In this document: piece by piece, positions 45,830-56,703 of the stretch
How positions within the stretch are numbered: the stretch's first letter is position 1
Layout of the letters: each line of letters begins with the position of its first letter
NCBI RefSeq assembly: GCF_020179755.1
Contig: NZ_JAIUCY010000004.1
Location: 124,001 to 188,000, forward strand
Length of the DNA stretch: 64,000 bases
DNA from: Herbaspirillum sp. alder98
GTDB taxonomy: Bacteria; Pseudomonadota; Gammaproteobacteria; Burkholderiales; Burkholderiaceae_D
Reading direction: 5' to 3'
Made by a program: the position numbers and the translations under genes
Notes under the pieces: generated by a model
Seen by the model: the letters and a program-made list of their open reading frames with translations, nothing else
Databases searched by the model: none
Told to the model about the DNA's origin: nothing

Positions 45830-47125
45830 CTATTCGGATCGCGCCAGCCGCACGCCCGCGCATTGCCAGCGCGCCGTCGCCGGAAAGAAATTGCGATAGC
45901 TCAAGCGGGCATGATTGAGCGGCGTAGCCATCGACGATCCGCGCAAGACATACTGGTTCACCATGAACTTGCCGTTGTATTCGCCGACCGCCCCGGGGGC
46001 CGCCGCAAACCCGGGATACGGCGCGTAACTGCTGGAAGTCCACTGCCAGGCCACGCCGAAGAATTCACGCGCAGGACCTCGCACCCTGGGTGCGGCATGC
46101 TCCCATTCGGCTTCGGTCGGCAGGCGCGCACCGGCCCAGCGGGCATAGGCGTCGGCTTCGTAATACGACAGGTGCAAGACGGCGCGCTGCGGATCCAGAC
46201 GTTGCAGGCCGTATTCGCTGAATTCATGCCAGTGGCCCTGGCCGTCGGACTGCCAGTACAGCGGGTGTTCGATTGCTTCACGGCAGCGCCAGTCCCAGCC
46301 CTCCGACAGCCACAGCGCCACATCCCGATAACCGCCCGCTTCGACGAAGGCCAGGTACTCGCCATTGCTGACCAATCGCGATGCACACGAATACGCTTCG
46401 ACGAACTGCCGATGGCGCGGCAATTCGTTATCGAAACAGAAGCCGTCACCGGCATGACCGATCTCGACCACGCCGGCGTCGAACCGATGCCACGCCAGCG
46501 GCAACGCGCCCGACTCGCCATTCAGGTTGTCGGGCAGCGGTTGATAGGCCGGCTTGAGGGGATTGACGAACAGCAGGTGCAGGATATCAGTCAGCATCAG
46601 CTCCTGATGCTGTTGCTCGTGCTGCAGGCCCAGTTCCAGCAATTGCAGGAATTCGCTTGAAGGCGCCGCACCCATGGCCTCGATCAGCCGCAGCATGCGC
46701 TGATCCACATCGGCGCGGTAGGCCTGAACCTCGTCCAGCGAAGGCCGTGTCAGCAAACCCCGTTGCGGGCGCGGAAACCGCTCGCCGACGCCTTCGTAGT
46801 ACGAATTGAACAGCACCCTGAACTGGGGATGGAAGGCGCAGAAGCCGCGCTCGAAACGCTCCAGCAGGAAGGTTTCGAAGAACCAGGTGGTGTGCGCCAG
46901 GTGCCACTTGACGGGACTGGCATCGGGCATCGACTGCGCGCAGCAATCCTCGGCCGACAGCGGTTCGGCGATCACCTGCGACTGCCGCCGCACGCGCCGG
47001 TAGCGGTCACTCGACTGATCGCGCGGACGGTGATCGTGCTCATGGTTGAGCTCATGCATGGCGGCGTCGATGACCGCATCGATGGTGGCGTCCAGCGCCT
47101 GTTCCTTGAAGATGACTTGAGGCAT
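45830..47125 (-). CDS. egtB: Ergothioneine biosynthesis sulfoxide synthase EgtB
   Basis: The 431-residue iron enzyme joins hercynine with a thiol donor and oxygen. It has a DinB-like N-terminal domain with iron-ligand histidines (HLAHTTWFFE near 75 and HEQQHQELMLTD near 169) and a C-terminal FGE-sulfatase domain (LPTEAEWEHAA, GVAWQWTSSSY, YVLRGSSMATP). It follows egtD by 15 bp on the same strand. EgtA, EgtC and EgtE are not nearby. Confidence 0.94.
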   Translation of the reverse strand: MPQVIFKEQALDATIDAVIDAAMHELNHEHDHRPRDQSSDRYRRVRRQSQVIAEPLSAEDCCAQSMPDASPVKWHLAHTTWFFETFLLERFERGFCAFHPQFRVLFNSYYEGVGERFPRPQRGLLTRPSLDEVQAYRADVDQRMLRLIEAMGAAPSSEFLQLLELGLQHEQQHQELMLTDILHLLFVNPLKPAYQPLPDNLNGESGALPLAWHRFDAGVVEIGHAGDGFCFDNELPRHRQFVEAYSCASRLVSNGEYLAFVEAGGYRDVALWLSEGWDWRCREAIEHPLYWQSDGQGHWHEFSEYGLQRLDPQRAVLHLSYYEADAYARWAGARLPTEAEWEHAAPRVRGPAREFFGVAWQWTSSSYAPYPGFAAAPGAVGEYNGKFMVNQYVLRGSSMATPLNHARLSYRNFFPATARWQCAGVRLARSE

Positions 47126-47140
47126 ATCAGGGCCGTTCGC

Positions 47141-48115
47141 TCAACGTGCTCGTGCGTGACAGACCGCAAACCAGCGCTGCGGATCGAACCACATGCGGCA
47201 GTCGCCGAAGCCGGCGCGTTGCAGCAGATCGACGATGCCGTCCGGCGTGAACTTATGGCTGTTCTCGGTATGGATGCGTTCGCCCTGGCCGAAGGTGCGG
47301 CGTCCGCCCTCCCAGCGCACGATCACGTCGCGGCGCGCTTCCAGATGCATCTCGACCCGCTGCTGCGCGGCATTGTAGAACCCCAGGTGCTGCCAGTGGC
47401 GGGCATTGAAATCGGCCCCCAGCAAGCGGTTCACATGATTGAGCAGGTTCAGGTTGAAGGCCGCCGTCACGCCCAGGGCATCGTCATAGGCGGCATCGAG
47501 CACCGCTGCCGGCTTGACCAGGTCGATACCCAGCAACACCCCACCGGCCTCACCCAGTTGCAGCGCCTGGCGCAGGCGGCGCAGGAATTGCAGTGCCTGG
47601 TCGGGATCGAAATTACCCAGCGACGAGCCGGGGTAAAAGAACAGCCGGCGTTCCCGCGAAACCGTGGCCGGTAAATTGAGCGAACTCGAAAAATCCTGGG
47701 CAATGGCGTCGATGGCAATCCCGGGAAACTTCTGCCGCAGGCTGGCCACCGCTTCGTGCAGGAAATCGGCCGAAATATCGACCGGCACGTATTGCCGCGG
47801 TTGCAACAACGGAAACAGCCGCGCCGCCTTGGCGCAATTGCCCGCCCCCAGGTCGATCAGCGTGACGCCCTGGCCGACGGTGGCGGCAATGCTGGACGCA
47901 TGGGCCTCGAAAATACTGGCCTCGGTACGCGTCGGATAATATTCGGGCAGTTCACAGATCGCCTCGAACAGCTTGCTGCCAAGCGCATCGTAGAGATATT
48001 TGGGAGAGACCACCGCCTGCGGTGCCAGCAGGCCGGCTTCGAGTTCAGCGCGGATGGTCGGTTCGGGCGCTGCCTGCGACAGTGGCGGCAGCGCGTGAGC
48101 GAGTTGAGGGGCCAA
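47141..48115 (-). CDS. egtD: L-histidine N-alpha-methyltransferase EgtD
   Basis: The 324-residue SAM-dependent enzyme trimethylates histidine to hercynine. Family motifs are seen: SPKYLYDALGSKLFEAICEL, YYPTRTE, the SAM site LIDLGAGNCAKA, FFYPGSSLGNF, and C-terminal RIHTENSHKF. The TTG start is well supported by AAGGAG 7 nt upstream. It is the first gene of the egtDB pair and is divergent from the ABC exporter gene. Confidence 0.94.
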   Translation of the reverse strand: MAPQLAHALPPLSQAAPEPTIRAELEAGLLAPQAVVSPKYLYDALGSKLFEAICELPEYYPTRTEASIFEAHASSIAATVGQGVTLIDLGAGNCAKAARLFPLLQPRQYVPVDISADFLHEAVASLRQKFPGIAIDAIAQDFSSSLNLPATVSRERRLFFYPGSSLGNFDPDQALQFLRRLRQALQLGEAGGVLLGIDLVKPAAVLDAAYDDALGVTAAFNLNLLNHVNRLLGADFNARHWQHLGFYNAAQQRVEMHLEARRDVIVRWEGGRRTFGQGERIHTENSHKFTPDGIVDLLQRAGFGDCRMWFDPQRWFAVCHARAR

Positions 48116-51569: not shown

Positions 51570-51758
51570 ATGAAACAAGTTGAACGTTCCCATTTAGACA
51601 ACATCAGCGGCGGCTGCAAACACAGGCGTCCCTACTACCATTTTGTTCAGCGCCCCCCCGTTTCACCCCCACCGCCACCCGAGCCGGGAACCGGGACGCC
51701 GTATCGAGCCGGCGCTAACAACAATAGCAACCTGGACATCCATATCTACGGGCAATAA
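51570..51758 (+). CDS. Double-glycine leader peptide precursor (candidate microcin or peptide signal)
   Basis: The 62-residue product begins MKQVERSHLDNISGG, a textbook double-glycine leader (hydrophobic Leu, Ile spaced before GG). Cleavage after GG would release a 47-residue peptide starting with Cys. The core is basic at its N-terminus (KHRRPYYHFVQR), has ten prolines including five in a row, then a Gly/Asn-rich segment and an end DIHIYGQ. Only one Cys is present, so no intramolecular disulfide. Its own terminator follows, and an exporter with a C39 leader peptidase is encoded 314 bp downstream. No Shine-Dalgarno of standard form is seen. Confidence 0.75.
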   Translation: MKQVERSHLDNISGGCKHRRPYYHFVQRPPVSPPPPPEPGTGTPYRAGANNNSNLDIHIYGQ

Positions 51759-51797
51759 GCGAAACGCAACTTCGCTGCCGACACTGACTGAAGGATG

Positions 51798-51831
51798 AAA
51801 ACCAGGGCAGAAAAAACACTGCCCTGGTTTT
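51798..51831 (+). terminator. Terminator after the GG-peptide gene
   Basis: AAAACCAGGGCAG and its exact complement (13 bp) enclose an 8-nt loop and end in TTTT. The peptide gene is thus transcribed separately from the exporter genes that begin at 52072. Confidence 0.9.
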
Positions 51832-52071
51832 CCGCATGGAGACATCTTTTCGATTAAGAAACTCGCGACGCTGCCAGCAGATGATTGCTTCACTCACACA
51901 GTCCCGGTGTCGCACTGGATTATTCATCCGGAAAGCAACGTGCCATTTTTAAAATACAAATGACAACAACAGGCATCACCTGACGCCGAAAGGGGAACCC
52001 CACCGCACTATTCGTCGAAACGGGATCGGCGGGCTCGGCAGGCGTCGGCGCGGCGCAATAACTTCACAAGT

Positions 52072-53268
52072 ATGAACACCAATAATTTCCCCGAATTCAA
52101 GGACATATCGATACGCAAGCTTGCCTACGCCGCGTCGCTGGCGGTGATCTTCTTCATTGCCTTCGCGTTCCTGCGCGAAATCGAACTCAAGAAAGACGTT
52201 CCGGCTGTCGTGGTCTCGCAAGGCGAGGTCAAGATCAGGGGCGTGAAAGGCCTGGTGGTCGATGTCCAGGCAACGCCCGACATGCCGGTGCAGGTCGGGC
52301 AGAACCTGTTCCGGCTCAAACGCGACCTGTCGCTGGCGGAAAACGGAATGACGCGGGAGCGCTACGCCGAACATCACAAAGATGGTCGAGTGCGCATGAT
52401 CGGCGAACAGGCTGCGCTGAAAGAACGCGATCTGCGCGCGCGCATCGATGCCCTGAGAGCCAACCTGGACAATCGCCAGCAGGAACTGCAGTTCCTCGGC
52501 CAGGAAATGGGCGAGATACGTCGCCAGATCGACGATGGGCAGAAAACTGCACTGCGTTTGCAGGCGCTGTCCGAGTACGTGATCATCGACCGTATCGAGC
52601 AAGCGCGATCGGAAGTGGCGCAACGAAAGATCGTTCTCACGCAGCGACTTGCCCGGCAACGTGAACTGCGCTCCGACATGAACCTCATGCGCGCCAACCA
52701 GAAAGAAGCCCAGGCCGCACTGGATACGGTAAGCATTCAGGTGCAACGCGATGTGCAGGATGCGCGCATGGACTATGAACGAAATCGCTCCAACGTCGTC
52801 ATCTCGGCGCCGGTGGCCGGCGTCGTATCGTTTTCCCAGGTCGCCGCCGGCACCATGTTGCGCGAAGACGAAGTTGCCATGGTGATCGCCACCGGCGCCG
52901 AGCACGGCTTGAAGGTCGCGTTGCACATTCCGTCCAGGCAGCGTGGTTTCATCAAGGAGGGGCAACGCGTACGCTTGAAATTCGATGCCTTCCCCTATGC
53001 CATCTTCGGCACGCACGAAGCCCGCATCGATGCCATATCGCGCGACACCATCGTGGCCGCACAAAGCGCTTCTTCCCTGTCTTCCCCGCCCACCAACGGT
53101 GATAGCGACTACGTGGCATATGCCCGCCTCACCAGTCCCGAGTTCACGGCGCGCGGCGAGCGCCATCACCTGTTGCCCGGCATGCGCGCCACCGCCAGCG
53201 TGGCGATCGAAAAACGCAGCATTGCCGAATGGGTGCTGGCCCCGGTATTCGAGGCATTCAGGGGCTGA
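52072..53268 (+). CDS. HlyD-family membrane fusion protein (CvaA-like)
   Basis: The 398-residue periplasmic adaptor has one N-terminal membrane segment (about 16-36), a biotinyl-lipoyl-like half, a long coiled-coil hairpin (about 115-235, rich in Glu, Gln and Arg), a second lipoyl half (VVISAPVAGVVSFSQVAAG) and a beta-barrel part. It links the ABC transporter in the inner membrane to the TolC-like channel. The size is close to that of CvaA of the microcin V system. The stop is 1 nt before the ATG of the transporter gene. The start has only a weak ribosome-binding site. Confidence 0.88.
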   Translation: MNTNNFPEFKDISIRKLAYAASLAVIFFIAFAFLREIELKKDVPAVVVSQGEVKIRGVKGLVVDVQATPDMPVQVGQNLFRLKRDLSLAENGMTRERYAEHHKDGRVRMIGEQAALKERDLRARIDALRANLDNRQQELQFLGQEMGEIRRQIDDGQKTALRLQALSEYVIIDRIEQARSEVAQRKIVLTQRLARQRELRSDMNLMRANQKEAQAALDTVSIQVQRDVQDARMDYERNRSNVVISAPVAGVVSFSQVAAGTMLREDEVAMVIATGAEHGLKVALHIPSRQRGFIKEGQRVRLKFDAFPYAIFGTHEARIDAISRDTIVAAQSASSLSSPPTNGDSDYVAYARLTSPEFTARGERHHLLPGMRATASVAIEKRSIAEWVLAPVFEAFRG

Positions 53269-53269
53269 G

Positions 53270-55345
53270 ATGCGGGTCATCTACCAGAATGAAGTCGCCA
53301 ACTGTGGCTATGCCTGCCTGGCGATGGCCCTGACCCTTTTCGGACGCACGACGGAGGTGCGCGAACTCAATGAGTTGCGGCCTGTGTCGGCCAACGGCTC
53401 GCGTCTTTCCGACCTGTATGACATGGCTGTCGAGTTCGGTCTGTCGGTGAGCGCCCTGCAGTTCGAGGCCGCCGACATCGGCGACATTCCCAAAGGGTCG
53501 ATCGTGCATTTCGACGGGTCGCACTTCGTGACCTTTGAATCCGCCGGACGACGCCACGTCAACATTATCGACCCTGCCATGGGACGCCGCCGGCTGTCCT
53601 TCGATGCCTTTCTCAAGAATACCTCGGGCTATCTGCTGGCATTTCGCCCCATGCCAACGCTGCAGCAGATCAAGGAAAAGTCCGCTGAATGGGCGGCGAT
53701 CAAGAGTATCTTCTTGCTCAATCCCGAGCTCAAGTCGCAACTGTTCAAGATCATGTTCGTCTCCATCGGCCTGCAATTCGCCGTGTTGACGTCGCCCTAC
53801 CTTGGTAGCCTGGTGCTGGACAACGTGGTGGCGGAAGATAATCTGCCGCTGATGAGTGTGCTGGTATTTACGTTCGGCAGTATCTTCGCTGTCGCGACAT
53901 TGAGCAACTTCGTGCAAACCTACCTTACCGAAGCAGTGCACCAGCGGGTACACAACAACAGTACCGAGGCCTTGCTGCGCAAGCTGTTGCAAAACCGCTT
54001 TTCCTACTTCGAAAAGCGCCACGTCGGCGATCTGTTCGCCCGCTTCCAGGCGCAGATCGCACTGATCGATTTCGTCACGCGCAGCACGGTAGGGTTTTGC
54101 ATCAACCTGTTCGTCGGCAGCCTGACGCTGATTCTGATGGTGTTTCAAAATCCGTTGATGACGGCCATTGCGCTGGCCATCTTCTCGCTCTACGTCGCTG
54201 TTTCGGCGGCGCTGCATCCGAGGATGATGGAGAGCGGACGCCAGGAAATGGAAGCCTCTGCGCGCTGCGACGACGCGCTCATCGAGACAATTCGCGCCGC
54301 CGCCCTGGTCAAGCTGGCGCAGAAGGAGCATCAACGGGTCAACCATCACATGGGTCTATTCCAGAAGTTGATGAATGACAGCTTTCGCGTGCGCAATCTG
54401 AACAACATCAACGACGTCCTGCTGAAGATGATCAGCTACGCGGATTCGCTCATCATCATGAGTATCTCCGTGCTGTTGATGGTCAACGGAAAATTGACCA
54501 TTGGTGGCTTCTATTCATTCCTGATGCTGCAAGCGCTGATGTCATCGCATCTTTCAGGCGTGCTGAGAGCCTTCCGGGAATTCAAGTTGCTGCGTGTCCC
54601 TGTGTCGCGGATCAACGATATCCTCGACCAGCAGGAAGAAGTCTATGCCGCTGCCGGCGTCATGGGCCACGTCGATGAAACCCTGCGCTTCGACTGCATC
54701 ACGCTCGACAATGTGGGCTTCCAATACGGCGTGTCGGATCAGCCTGTGCTGCGCGAGGTCGACCTGGTCATCCGGCGCGGCGACAAGATCGCCATCGTGG
54801 GCCCTTCGGGTGCGGGGAAATCGACCTTGTTCAAGCTGATCAGCGCCATCGAGCCTTGCACGCAGGGGTCGGTCAGTCTCAATGGCATCAGCTATGCCAA
54901 CCTCGCCGTCGACGAAATCCGCCAGCACATGGCGCACATGCGCCAGGGCGACATCATCCTCAATGGCACGATTACCGACAACGTCTCGATGTTTGCCGCC
55001 GGCGCCGATAGTCGCTTAGTCAACGACCTGCTCAAGAAGGTCGGACTGTACGAGCATGTCATGCGACTACCGATGCGCACCGCCACGCCAGTGAGCGACT
55101 CGATCGCCAACATCTCCGCCGGCCAGAAGCAGCGCCTGCTGCTGGCGCGCGCCTTGTACCAGGACCGCGAGCTGATGCTGTTCGACGAGCCGACCTCCAA
55201 TCTCGACCGCGACTCGGCCGAGATGATAGGTCGCCTGCTACGCGAGAGCGGCAAGACCATCGTCGTCATTACCCACGACCAGGAACTGGCCGGCAATTTT
55301 TCCCGGCGTTATCGTATCGATGGCGGCCGGCTGGCGTCGTTATGA
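53270..55345 (+). CDS. Peptidase C39-containing ABC transporter (bacteriocin/microcin exporter)
   Basis: The 691-residue protein combines an N-terminal C39 peptidase (residues 1-130), a six-segment ABC membrane domain (about 160-450) and an ATPase domain. The protease triad is intact: Cys12 in NEVANCGYACLAM with Gln6, His85 in GSHFVTF, and Asp101 in IIDPAMG. It should cleave double-glycine leaders during export. Walker A is GPSGAGKST at 511-519, the signature reads ISAGQ, and Walker B is LMLFDEPTSNLD. The ATG overlaps nothing but is 1 nt after the HlyD stop; the frame is open upstream inside the HlyD gene, which is a shadow. Confidence 0.93.
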   Translation: MRVIYQNEVANCGYACLAMALTLFGRTTEVRELNELRPVSANGSRLSDLYDMAVEFGLSVSALQFEAADIGDIPKGSIVHFDGSHFVTFESAGRRHVNIIDPAMGRRRLSFDAFLKNTSGYLLAFRPMPTLQQIKEKSAEWAAIKSIFLLNPELKSQLFKIMFVSIGLQFAVLTSPYLGSLVLDNVVAEDNLPLMSVLVFTFGSIFAVATLSNFVQTYLTEAVHQRVHNNSTEALLRKLLQNRFSYFEKRHVGDLFARFQAQIALIDFVTRSTVGFCINLFVGSLTLILMVFQNPLMTAIALAIFSLYVAVSAALHPRMMESGRQEMEASARCDDALIETIRAAALVKLAQKEHQRVNHHMGLFQKLMNDSFRVRNLNNINDVLLKMISYADSLIIMSISVLLMVNGKLTIGGFYSFLMLQALMSSHLSGVLRAFREFKLLRVPVSRINDILDQQEEVYAAAGVMGHVDETLRFDCITLDNVGFQYGVSDQPVLREVDLVIRRGDKIAIVGPSGAGKSTLFKLISAIEPCTQGSVSLNGISYANLAVDEIRQHMAHMRQGDIILNGTITDNVSMFAAGADSRLVNDLLKKVGLYEHVMRLPMRTATPVSDSIANISAGQKQRLLLARALYQDRELMLFDEPTSNLDRDSAEMIGRLLRESGKTIVVITHDQELAGNFSRRYRIDGGRLASL

Positions 55346-56703
55346 GCCACGCCAAAGCCCGTCGTCGCGCTTGCTCGCGGGCGCACCTGCTGGCGTGCGG
55401 ACTGGCATTACTCCTTTGCGGCCATGTACTGGCAGCCGACGCGGCGCATCACGATGCGCCGCTGCCGGACCTGCTGTCCATGTTGCAGTGGGCGGAACAG
55501 GACGATCCCGGGCTGGCTGGCGCACGACTGGCCTATCAGGCAGACCAGGCCGGTACGTCACGCGCGCAAGCCGCTTTTTTGCCACAGGTCACCGGTAGTT
55601 GGAGCCGCGAGCGCAACATCGTCAAGACCCAGGCCCTGCCATCGCAACACCATACCCAGCGCCGCTGGCAGATATCGCTGTCGCAAACCCTCTTCAACTG
55701 GGATAGCTGGACCGCCCATCAGCAATCCGAGCTGGAACAGGCAAAGTCGGCGATTCGTCTGACCCAGGCTCACCAGGCCCTTTTCCTGAAGGTGGCCATC
55801 GCTTATTTTGGCGTCCTGTCCGCGCAGGAAGACATGACGCACATCAACGCCCATCAGGCCTCCCTGAAGCAGCAACTGGAGCGCACCAAGGCACGCTTTG
55901 CGCGTGGGGACGCGACCCTGATCGACATGCGTGACATCGAGTCAGCCATCGACCGGCAGGCTGTGCAAGCGACCCTGACCGATGGAGAATTGCTGGCAAA
56001 GCGCCTGACATTGGAAGAATTTTCCGGCCGCAGGCTTGCCCGTATCGCTCCCCTGCGCGCGGACATGGAAGCCCCCATGGTGGTGCCGGACGATATGCAG
56101 AGGTGGATCGCGCGGGCCCGCAATAGCAACTTCGATGTCCAGCTGCAATTGCTCGATAAGAAGAAAGCGCTCCTGGAGACCTCCAGGGCCAAGGGCGCGT
56201 ACCTGCCCACCCTGGGCTTGACCGCAAGCCATACGCCGGCGAGCGGTTCGGCACACATTGCGCGCACGACCACCAACGCCATCGGGATCCAGTTGAACAT
56301 TCCGATCTTCTCCGGCTTTGACACCGTGCATCGCGTTCGACAAACGCTGGCGCTGGAAGAGAAAGCCGGCACCGACCTGGAGAGCGCCGAGCGCAGCAGC
56401 GCCGCGGCGGTGCGCGACACCTTCGTCCAGCTGCAGACCAGCCGCCGGCGCCTGCAAGGATTGAGCGACGCCATGCAATCGTCACGCACGGCGCTTGAGG
56501 CCAATGAAATCGGCTACCGTATCGGCGGGCGCTCCGAAGCCGATATCCTTCAGGCAAAAAATGCCTTCTTCACCGTTCACCGTGACCTGACCATGGCACG
56601 CTACGACATCATCCTGCAAGGCTTGCGGCTCAAGTTGCTGACCGCATCGCTGGAGTTCCAGGACGTCATCGCCGTCAATGGCCTGCTCGCCGATGCCCCA
56701 TGA
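55342..56703 (+). CDS. TolC-like outer membrane efflux channel protein
   Basis: The 453-residue protein has a signal peptide (hydrophobic about 17-31, cleaved near VLAADA) and two OEP repeats: QAAFLPQVTGSWSRER with SLSQTLFNWD, and GAYLPTLGLTASHT with NIPIFSGFDT. It provides the outer-membrane exit of the export machine. Its ATG overlaps the transporter stop by 4 nt, so all three exporter genes form one operon. Having a dedicated TolC-like gene rather than using a housekeeping one is notable. Confidence 0.9.
   Translation: MSHAKARRRACSRAHLLACGLALLLCGHVLAADAAHHDAPLPDLLSMLQWAEQDDPGLAGARLAYQADQAGTSRAQAAFLPQVTGSWSRERNIVKTQALPSQHHTQRRWQISLSQTLFNWDSWTAHQQSELEQAKSAIRLTQAHQALFLKVAIAYFGVLSAQEDMTHINAHQASLKQQLERTKARFARGDATLIDMRDIESAIDRQAVQATLTDGELLAKRLTLEEFSGRRLARIAPLRADMEAPMVVPDDMQRWIARARNSNFDVQLQLLDKKKALLETSRAKGAYLPTLGLTASHTPASGSAHIARTTTNAIGIQLNIPIFSGFDTVHRVRQTLALEEKAGTDLESAERSSAAAVRDTFVQLQTSRRRLQGLSDAMQSSRTALEANEIGYRIGGRSEADILQAKNAFFTVHRDLTMARYDIILQGLRLKLLTASLEFQDVIAVNGLLADAP

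Follow-up and report, generated by a model that had tools for sequence, protein, structure and literature searches.

What does a bacterium gain from a dedicated export line for one small peptide? The question is raised by a 64,000-nucleotide stretch of Herbaspirillum sp. alder98 (contig NZ_JAIUCY010000004.1, positions 124,001 to 188,000 of the forward strand; the whole stretch is hereafter the window), in which a short gene for a precursor with a double-glycine (GG) leader precedes the genes for an HlyD-type adaptor, a C39-peptidase ATP-binding cassette (ABC) exporter and a TolC-type outer-membrane channel. On balance we lean towards a dedicated type I export line whose micropeptide acts at the surface of its producer together with an adhesin, rather than as a bacteriocin. 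Export is well supported by the sequence, and it would follow, like cleavage after Gly-Gly, from what is established for C39 proteins and from the intact parts. A surface or adhesion role, perhaps with acylation of the peptide in relatives, is probably a better fit than a microcin because of the company of adhesin genes, the acyltransferase fold of a partner protein in relatives and the absence of a visible immunity gene.

The precursor and its exporter

The preliminary description of the locus placed precursor, HlyD, C39-ABC and TolC-type genes here, and all four are found where it put them (Table 1). It also took the catalytic triad Cys12/His85/Asp101 to be intact, which is borne out: a C39 domain with the Cys, His and Asp is recognized in the window exporter by PF03412, and the three residues are invariant in a comparison of the four closest exporters. 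The ABC membrane and ATPase domains, the adaptor and the channel adjoin one another, the channel scoring 202 bits with TIGR01844 and so falling under its cut-off of 225.15. With the model for NHLP-leader bacteriocin export, TIGR03796, the exporter reaches 335 bits and the curated cut-off is 853.3. In a defence-library search neither the precursor nor the acyltransferase-fold protein of relatives had a match, and exporter matches were mostly on the ATPase part.

The precursor core starts CKH and finishes NLDIHIYGQ. By eye the precursor has no Sec-type signal, a GG leader being there instead, and the residue after GG is Cys. The leader pattern has a single match in the 64 kb, which is the precursor gene; in 856,053 bases, inspection of position and sequence by eye dismissed eight pattern matches as false, or about 0.06 per 6-kb stretch.

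In the mechanism we favor, the leader would dock on the C39 domain of the exporter, which would cut after Gly-Gly (position 15) and drive the 47-residue core out of the cell by way of HlyD and the TolC-type channel. Once exported, the core would act at the producer's own surface, with the surface adhesin, as a coat, a matrix or a modulator of adhesion. A PatA/LpxM-fold protein of most relatives may attach an acyl group close to the new N-terminus of the peptide, at Cys+1 or Lys+3. The window product would be unacylated, because the gene for that protein is missing from the genome. A hairpin lies within the 313 bases between precursor and HlyD genes; it was not called by the terminator scan, and if it is a terminator or attenuator it would give peptide and exporter different levels.

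Table 1. Features of the export locus and of the divergent adhesin gene, in window coordinates
Feature	Position	Strand	Basis
GG-leader micropeptide precursor, 62 aa	51570..51758	+	leader homologous to precursors of CF444 and others
Double-glycine leader MKQVERSHLDNISGG, 15 residues	51570..51614	+	read from sequence; leader codons conserved in four relative pairs
Core, 47 residues, Cys first, Pro-rich middle, C-terminal alternating stretch NLDIHIYG	51615..51755	+	read from sequence
14-bp perfect hairpin between precursor and exporter genes, possible terminator/attenuator	51797..51832	+	-25.4 kcal/mol, z -5.63
HlyD-type periplasmic adaptor, 398 aa	52072..53268	+	PF13437 (E 2.9e-15), PF16576
C39-peptidase ABC exporter, 691 aa, C12/H85/D101	53270..55345	+	PF03412 (E 7.5e-23), PF00664, PF00005
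TolC-type outer-membrane channel, 453 aa	55342..56703	+	PF02321 (E 8.7e-42)
Divergent fimbrial (tip-type) adhesin, 357 aa	50251..51324	-	PF00419

Relatives of the exporter and the precursor family

Close relatives of the exporter (55-67% identity) are present in three of 61 genomes, namely that of the window and those of Herbaspirillum sp. CF444 and Herbaspirillum sp. YR522. At E 1e-150 or better the clade is found in 3 of 294 genomes of the same family, in 2 of 399 in a sample of the order, one of them the window's own, and in 43 of 349 in the family of genome G548, these family and order searches having scored no more than the top two or three candidates of each genome. Its loci occur in Herbaspirillum, Paraburkholderia, Caballeronia, Burkholderia, Rhodanobacter and Dyella, and the patchy distribution within Herbaspirillum suggests transfer. 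The more distant C39 exporters listed in the search of the 61 genomes are at most 29% identical to that of the window.

Comparisons below are of 51 distinct exporter places: the window, L030 (the CF444 locus, sister of the window), L031 (YR522), L032 (a second exporter of the window's own genome), L037, L039, L043, L044, L046, L047, L048 and L106-L145. L036, L038, L040, L041, L042, L050, L035 and L045 were merged as duplicates of counted places, and L049 (25% identity) and four truncated places from the search of the family of G548 stand outside the set. Apart from the window the stretches are 8 to 20 kb, so that neighboring genes can be missed. HlyD is encoded at 49 places and a TolC-type protein at 48.

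The preliminary description had named a lack of homologous precursors beside related exporters as the finding that would speak against it; homologous GG microgenes are near the exporter at 47 of the 51 places, 69 genes in total, the places without one being L032, L044, L048 and L115. Searched alone against the 61 genomes the window precursor gives mostly noise, though its match in CF444 (E 0.0029) adjoins the related exporter. A profile of 20 precursors reaches 42 proteins in a large protein set beyond the window's own, six of which come from places in the set of 51; all 42 are without a precomputed Pfam domain, and those with a name displayed are called hypothetical or uncharacterized. With a leader profile run on 36 genomes (CF444's G031 outside), the window's own genome has no second strong leader, the next match being at E 0.2.

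Selection has acted differently on the two parts of the precursor. Across four close pairs of equal length, codon changes in the leader are 15 synonymous to 0 nonsynonymous and in the core 5 to 12, a split with a chance of 2.7e-5 (calculated by hand; L143 is in two of the four pairs, and two pairs of unequal length were left out). Where exporters are 80-90% identical and the locus has a single precursor, leaders average 80% identity and cores 37% (51 pairs). Judged by this codon split and these identities, the precursor genes are translated, with the leader held fixed and the product changing fast. Pooling the 51 places with the protein set gives 104 distinct cores, of which 75 have Cys first and 90 have Lys at +3; length ranges from 14 to 57 residues, with a median of 23. 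Two styles are apparent, one CCK... and Thr/Pro-rich, the other strand-like, ...NTTVVIYV....

Several leads from this comparison were not retained. Matches to TIGR03973 (E 0.0006) and listeriolysin S (E 0.0016) involved one of the 20 precursors each, in neither case the window's, and are taken as compositional chance. A palindrome upstream of the CF444 and YR522 peptide genes, considered as a promoter motif, recurs with at most two mismatches at four of eight Herbaspirillum genes, two of which share one site, and so is not family-wide; at the window gene it is three mismatches off, and random shuffles reach three or fewer in 30 of 1600. A second palindrome, considered in the same way, is present with at most one mismatch at 4 of 68 genes and is likewise not family-wide.

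The loci of near relatives have features of their own. YR522 has five diverse GG genes near one exporter, flanking an lldD-like gene on both sides (L031 12049-12801, 14302-14636), and the acyltransferase-fold gene is absent there. L032 (contig C3, 161-3496) lies at a contig edge and has a 56% identical C39-ABC gene of the same clade plus HlyD. Its upstream neighbor is an lldD-like gene, a feature shared with YR522; no GG gene was found beside the exporter. The window's own genome also has two more C39-like ABC exporters (L156, L157) in which, by eye, the catalytic Cys is seemingly missing, as in RTX-type exporters, and one of them is behind an open reading frame (ORF) of 2066 residues. CF444 has a different C39 exporter, 26% identical, with its own GG/GA-leader peptide (L033 6114-6329), whose Gly/Ala-rich, glycine-zipper-like core makes it a better bacteriocin candidate than the window peptide.

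Adhesin and acyltransferase-fold partners

Surface-adhesin genes are beside the exporter at 30 of the 51 places, with chaperone-usher fimbrial genes at 21 and divergent YadA-type genes at nine. The 21 have fimbrial, usher or chaperone genes within about 11 kb, including a fimbrial subunit or adhesin at 18; the other three, L044, L115 and L132, have only usher/chaperone stretches, seen as remnants. At L115 and L044 these stretches lead directly into HlyD or C39, as though the peptide and acyltransferase-fold genes had been deleted. The YadA-type trimeric autotransporter gene adjoins the GG gene at all nine of its places, which belong to one branch (Pfam confirmed it on two of them). The fimbrial kind is distributed over separate branches of the exporter tree (the window with L030, L145, L136 with L138, L039, L114, L125 and a Caballeronia-type group) and is absent from the L031/L032 and YadA branches, several deep nodes of the tree being poorly supported. 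An ancestral link between exporter and fimbriae, followed by losses, may account for this pattern.

The window adhesin matches the adhesins that neighbor GG genes at L136, L114, L145 and L138 over most of its length (E 2e-32 to 5e-30); its AlphaFold model was poor, with a mean predicted local distance difference test score (pLDDT) of 60, and was not used. Usher matches number 1-9 per genome in 19 genomes, and in G872, G791 and G775 the single match is the usher next to the exporter. The window's own genome has three ushers, all elsewhere. One of them (L153) shares the contig of the window and is accompanied by a chaperone and two pilin-like ORFs. No two-domain adhesin was seen at L153, so the window adhesin could serve the usher system there. 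The idea that the strand-like C-terminus of the peptide fills a pilin groove by donor-strand complementation was not kept: strand-like cores are found at 12 of 19 loci with fimbrial neighbors versus 8 of 27 without (p 0.036; L043 outside the table), a weak association, and L108, L109, L121 and L128 have such cores with no fimbrial genes in the stretch read.

The other partner, an undescribed protein some 300-320 residues long, has its gene at 45 of the 51 places, the exceptions being the window, L031, L032, L044, L048 and L115. Among the 61 genomes its family is present in that of CF444 only and so is missing from the window's. The preliminary description had called the export system complete, which holds for the four genes it named and not for this one. 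Pfam scans of three members gave nothing at E 0.001, and a sequence comparison with the PDB likewise found no counterpart of the family. An AlphaFold model of one member (pLDDT 81.6) has PatA or LpxM at all of Foldseek ranks 1-14 (E 3.8e-7 to 2.4e-5, template-modeling score 0.44-0.59), and the PatA-type model NF005919 of NCBIfam matches 11 of 11 aligned members weakly, the best at E 1.3e-6, far under the cut-off. The predicted structure thus places the partner in the PatA/LpxM-type (LPLAT) fold. Lys+3 is present in 56 of 63 cores from places with the acyltransferase-fold gene and in none of six from places without it (Fisher p 1.6e-5, computed on a count of 55/62).

Further upstream, at 45830-48115, the window has a gene pair with FGE-sulfatase/DinB_2 and Methyltransf_33 domains, which we take to resemble ergothioneine-type biosynthesis (EgtB/EgtD).

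What the peptide may do

The preliminary description left the product open between microcin, pheromone and surface-acting peptide. Its reading as an export system stands, with an intact C39 exporter, a genuine precursor and homologous precursors beside the exporters of relatives, and for the product the evidence leans to the last of the three. A class II microcin-like bacteriocin that kills related bacteria is unlikely. Such microcins pair a GG leader with a C39 type I exporter, both of which the window has, and cores that evolve fast behind fixed leaders would suit them. The CvaB/CvaA/TolC exporter of colicin V is one of the C39-peptidase type I exporters (PCAT), which the window system resembles in its C39 Cys-His-Asp peptidase, ABC transporter, HlyD-type adaptor, TolC-type channel and GG leader, but the window clade differs in its link to adhesin and acyltransferase-fold genes and in having no immunity gene that we could see. 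Clustering of ORFs of at least 70 residues, with incomplete recovery and with several branch-local families not identified, gave no immunity-gene candidate that spans branches at the 51 places; it is adhesin genes that recur as neighbors across branches. In the window the sole + strand ORF of at least 40 residues between precursor and HlyD overlaps the precursor, as do two antisense ORFs (70 and 76 residues). The window precursor is without a match among NCBIfam models, and 85 of the 104 distinct cores have 30 residues or fewer. More doubtful again is a pheromone or host-directed signal, to which kin or a plant host would respond in the manner of RaxX. C39 exporters of other bacteria carry signals, ComA structures are among the relatives of the exporter, and several genera with these loci are plant- or host-associated. 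RaxX-RaxSTAB of Xanthomonas, likewise from plant-associated bacteria, has a GG peptide and C39/HlyD export as here, but no sulfotransferase is among the window neighbors scanned. Nor did the same clustering, which recovered 35 of the 45 acyltransferase-fold genes, yield a receptor, sensor, kinase or response regulator across branches: TetR-type and LysR/ModE-type regulators, at six places each, are inside single branches. Further, cores differ strongly even in close species. Decay, with the peptide line of the window strain no longer working after loss of the acyltransferase-fold gene, is quite improbable. That gene, so common at the other places, is indeed not found in the strain's genome, and its second exporter, at a contig edge, has no adjoining precursor, yet the exporter reading frames, C39 triad and GG leader are all intact, and YR522, also without the acyltransferase-fold family, has its five GG genes.

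Action at the producer surface, the role we prefer, has its own difficulties. Neither kind of adhesin is within the stretch read at 21 of the 51 places, fimbrial genes being absent there from the L031/L032 branch and from many CCK-type Paraburkholderia-like loci, and at the sister locus of CF444 the adhesin matches that of the window in its pilin half only (E 3e-4). The Rhodanobacter and Dyella loci (L039, L043) have no TolC-type gene nearby. Fast-evolving cores are also compatible with an antibacterial arms race, and a clustering that missed ten of the 45 acyltransferase-fold genes could have passed over a small immunity gene. The association of Lys+3 with the acyltransferase-fold gene is confounded by ancestry, as all Herbaspirillum cores are without Lys+3, those of CF444 included despite its having the gene. 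The LPLAT catalytic motif is H-x4-D/E; in the partner family H141 is invariant and Tyr occupies the acid position in 11 of 11 members aligned. Acyltransferase activity is uncertain for that reason, keeping in mind that another acid could serve.

Two known systems may serve as working analogues. To our knowledge there is no acyltransferase or fimbrial operon with EbfG/PteB of Synechococcus elongatus. EbfG1-4 are several small GG proteins with a role in biofilm and the C39 transporter PteB needs its Cys, so that the likeness is in small GG proteins, C39 transport and surface life (PMC4997328). The Aat system exports CexE/dispersin, a small secreted surface protein, with a TolC-type channel, a dedicated acyltransferase and a link to fimbriae, all of which have counterparts here; its client, however, reaches the periplasm through Sec and is picked up there, and AatD acylates an N-terminal Gly (PMC7943197, PMC7344145). 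The window clade has instead a C39 exporter, a GG leader and a PatA/LpxM-type fold, and the window precursor has, by eye, neither a Sec signal nor, after the leader, an N-terminal Gly for acylation. AatD, for its part, is Lnt-like, and CdzC/CdzD is the name of the genes for a contact-dependent two-protein bacteriocin of Caulobacter. The small proteins of the latter are reportedly exported by a type I system, are kept on the surface and have glycine zippers (PMC5380434), repeats that by eye the window-clade peptides lack.

A fuller version of surface action can be offered tentatively. In it the C39 exporters deliver lipidated micropeptides of 14-57 residues, acylated at Cys+1 or Lys+3 by a dedicated PatA-like enzyme; these peptides cover the cell and adjust or anchor the adhesins that it makes, which are chaperone-usher fimbriae in some lineages and YadA-type proteins in another. 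This would be an independent counterpart of Aat/dispersin, assembled from different components, and the window strain an acyltransferase-less variant.

A literature search found no report of this exporter-micropeptide cluster. What the locus provides is a family of exported micropeptides, open to testing, in Burkholderiales and in some Xanthomonadales; its genes are often linked to those for surface adhesins and for an acyltransferase-fold partner. If action at the surface is true, the roles of Gram-negative C39 exporters would extend beyond microcins, and lipidated peptides would have one more way of reaching the surface.

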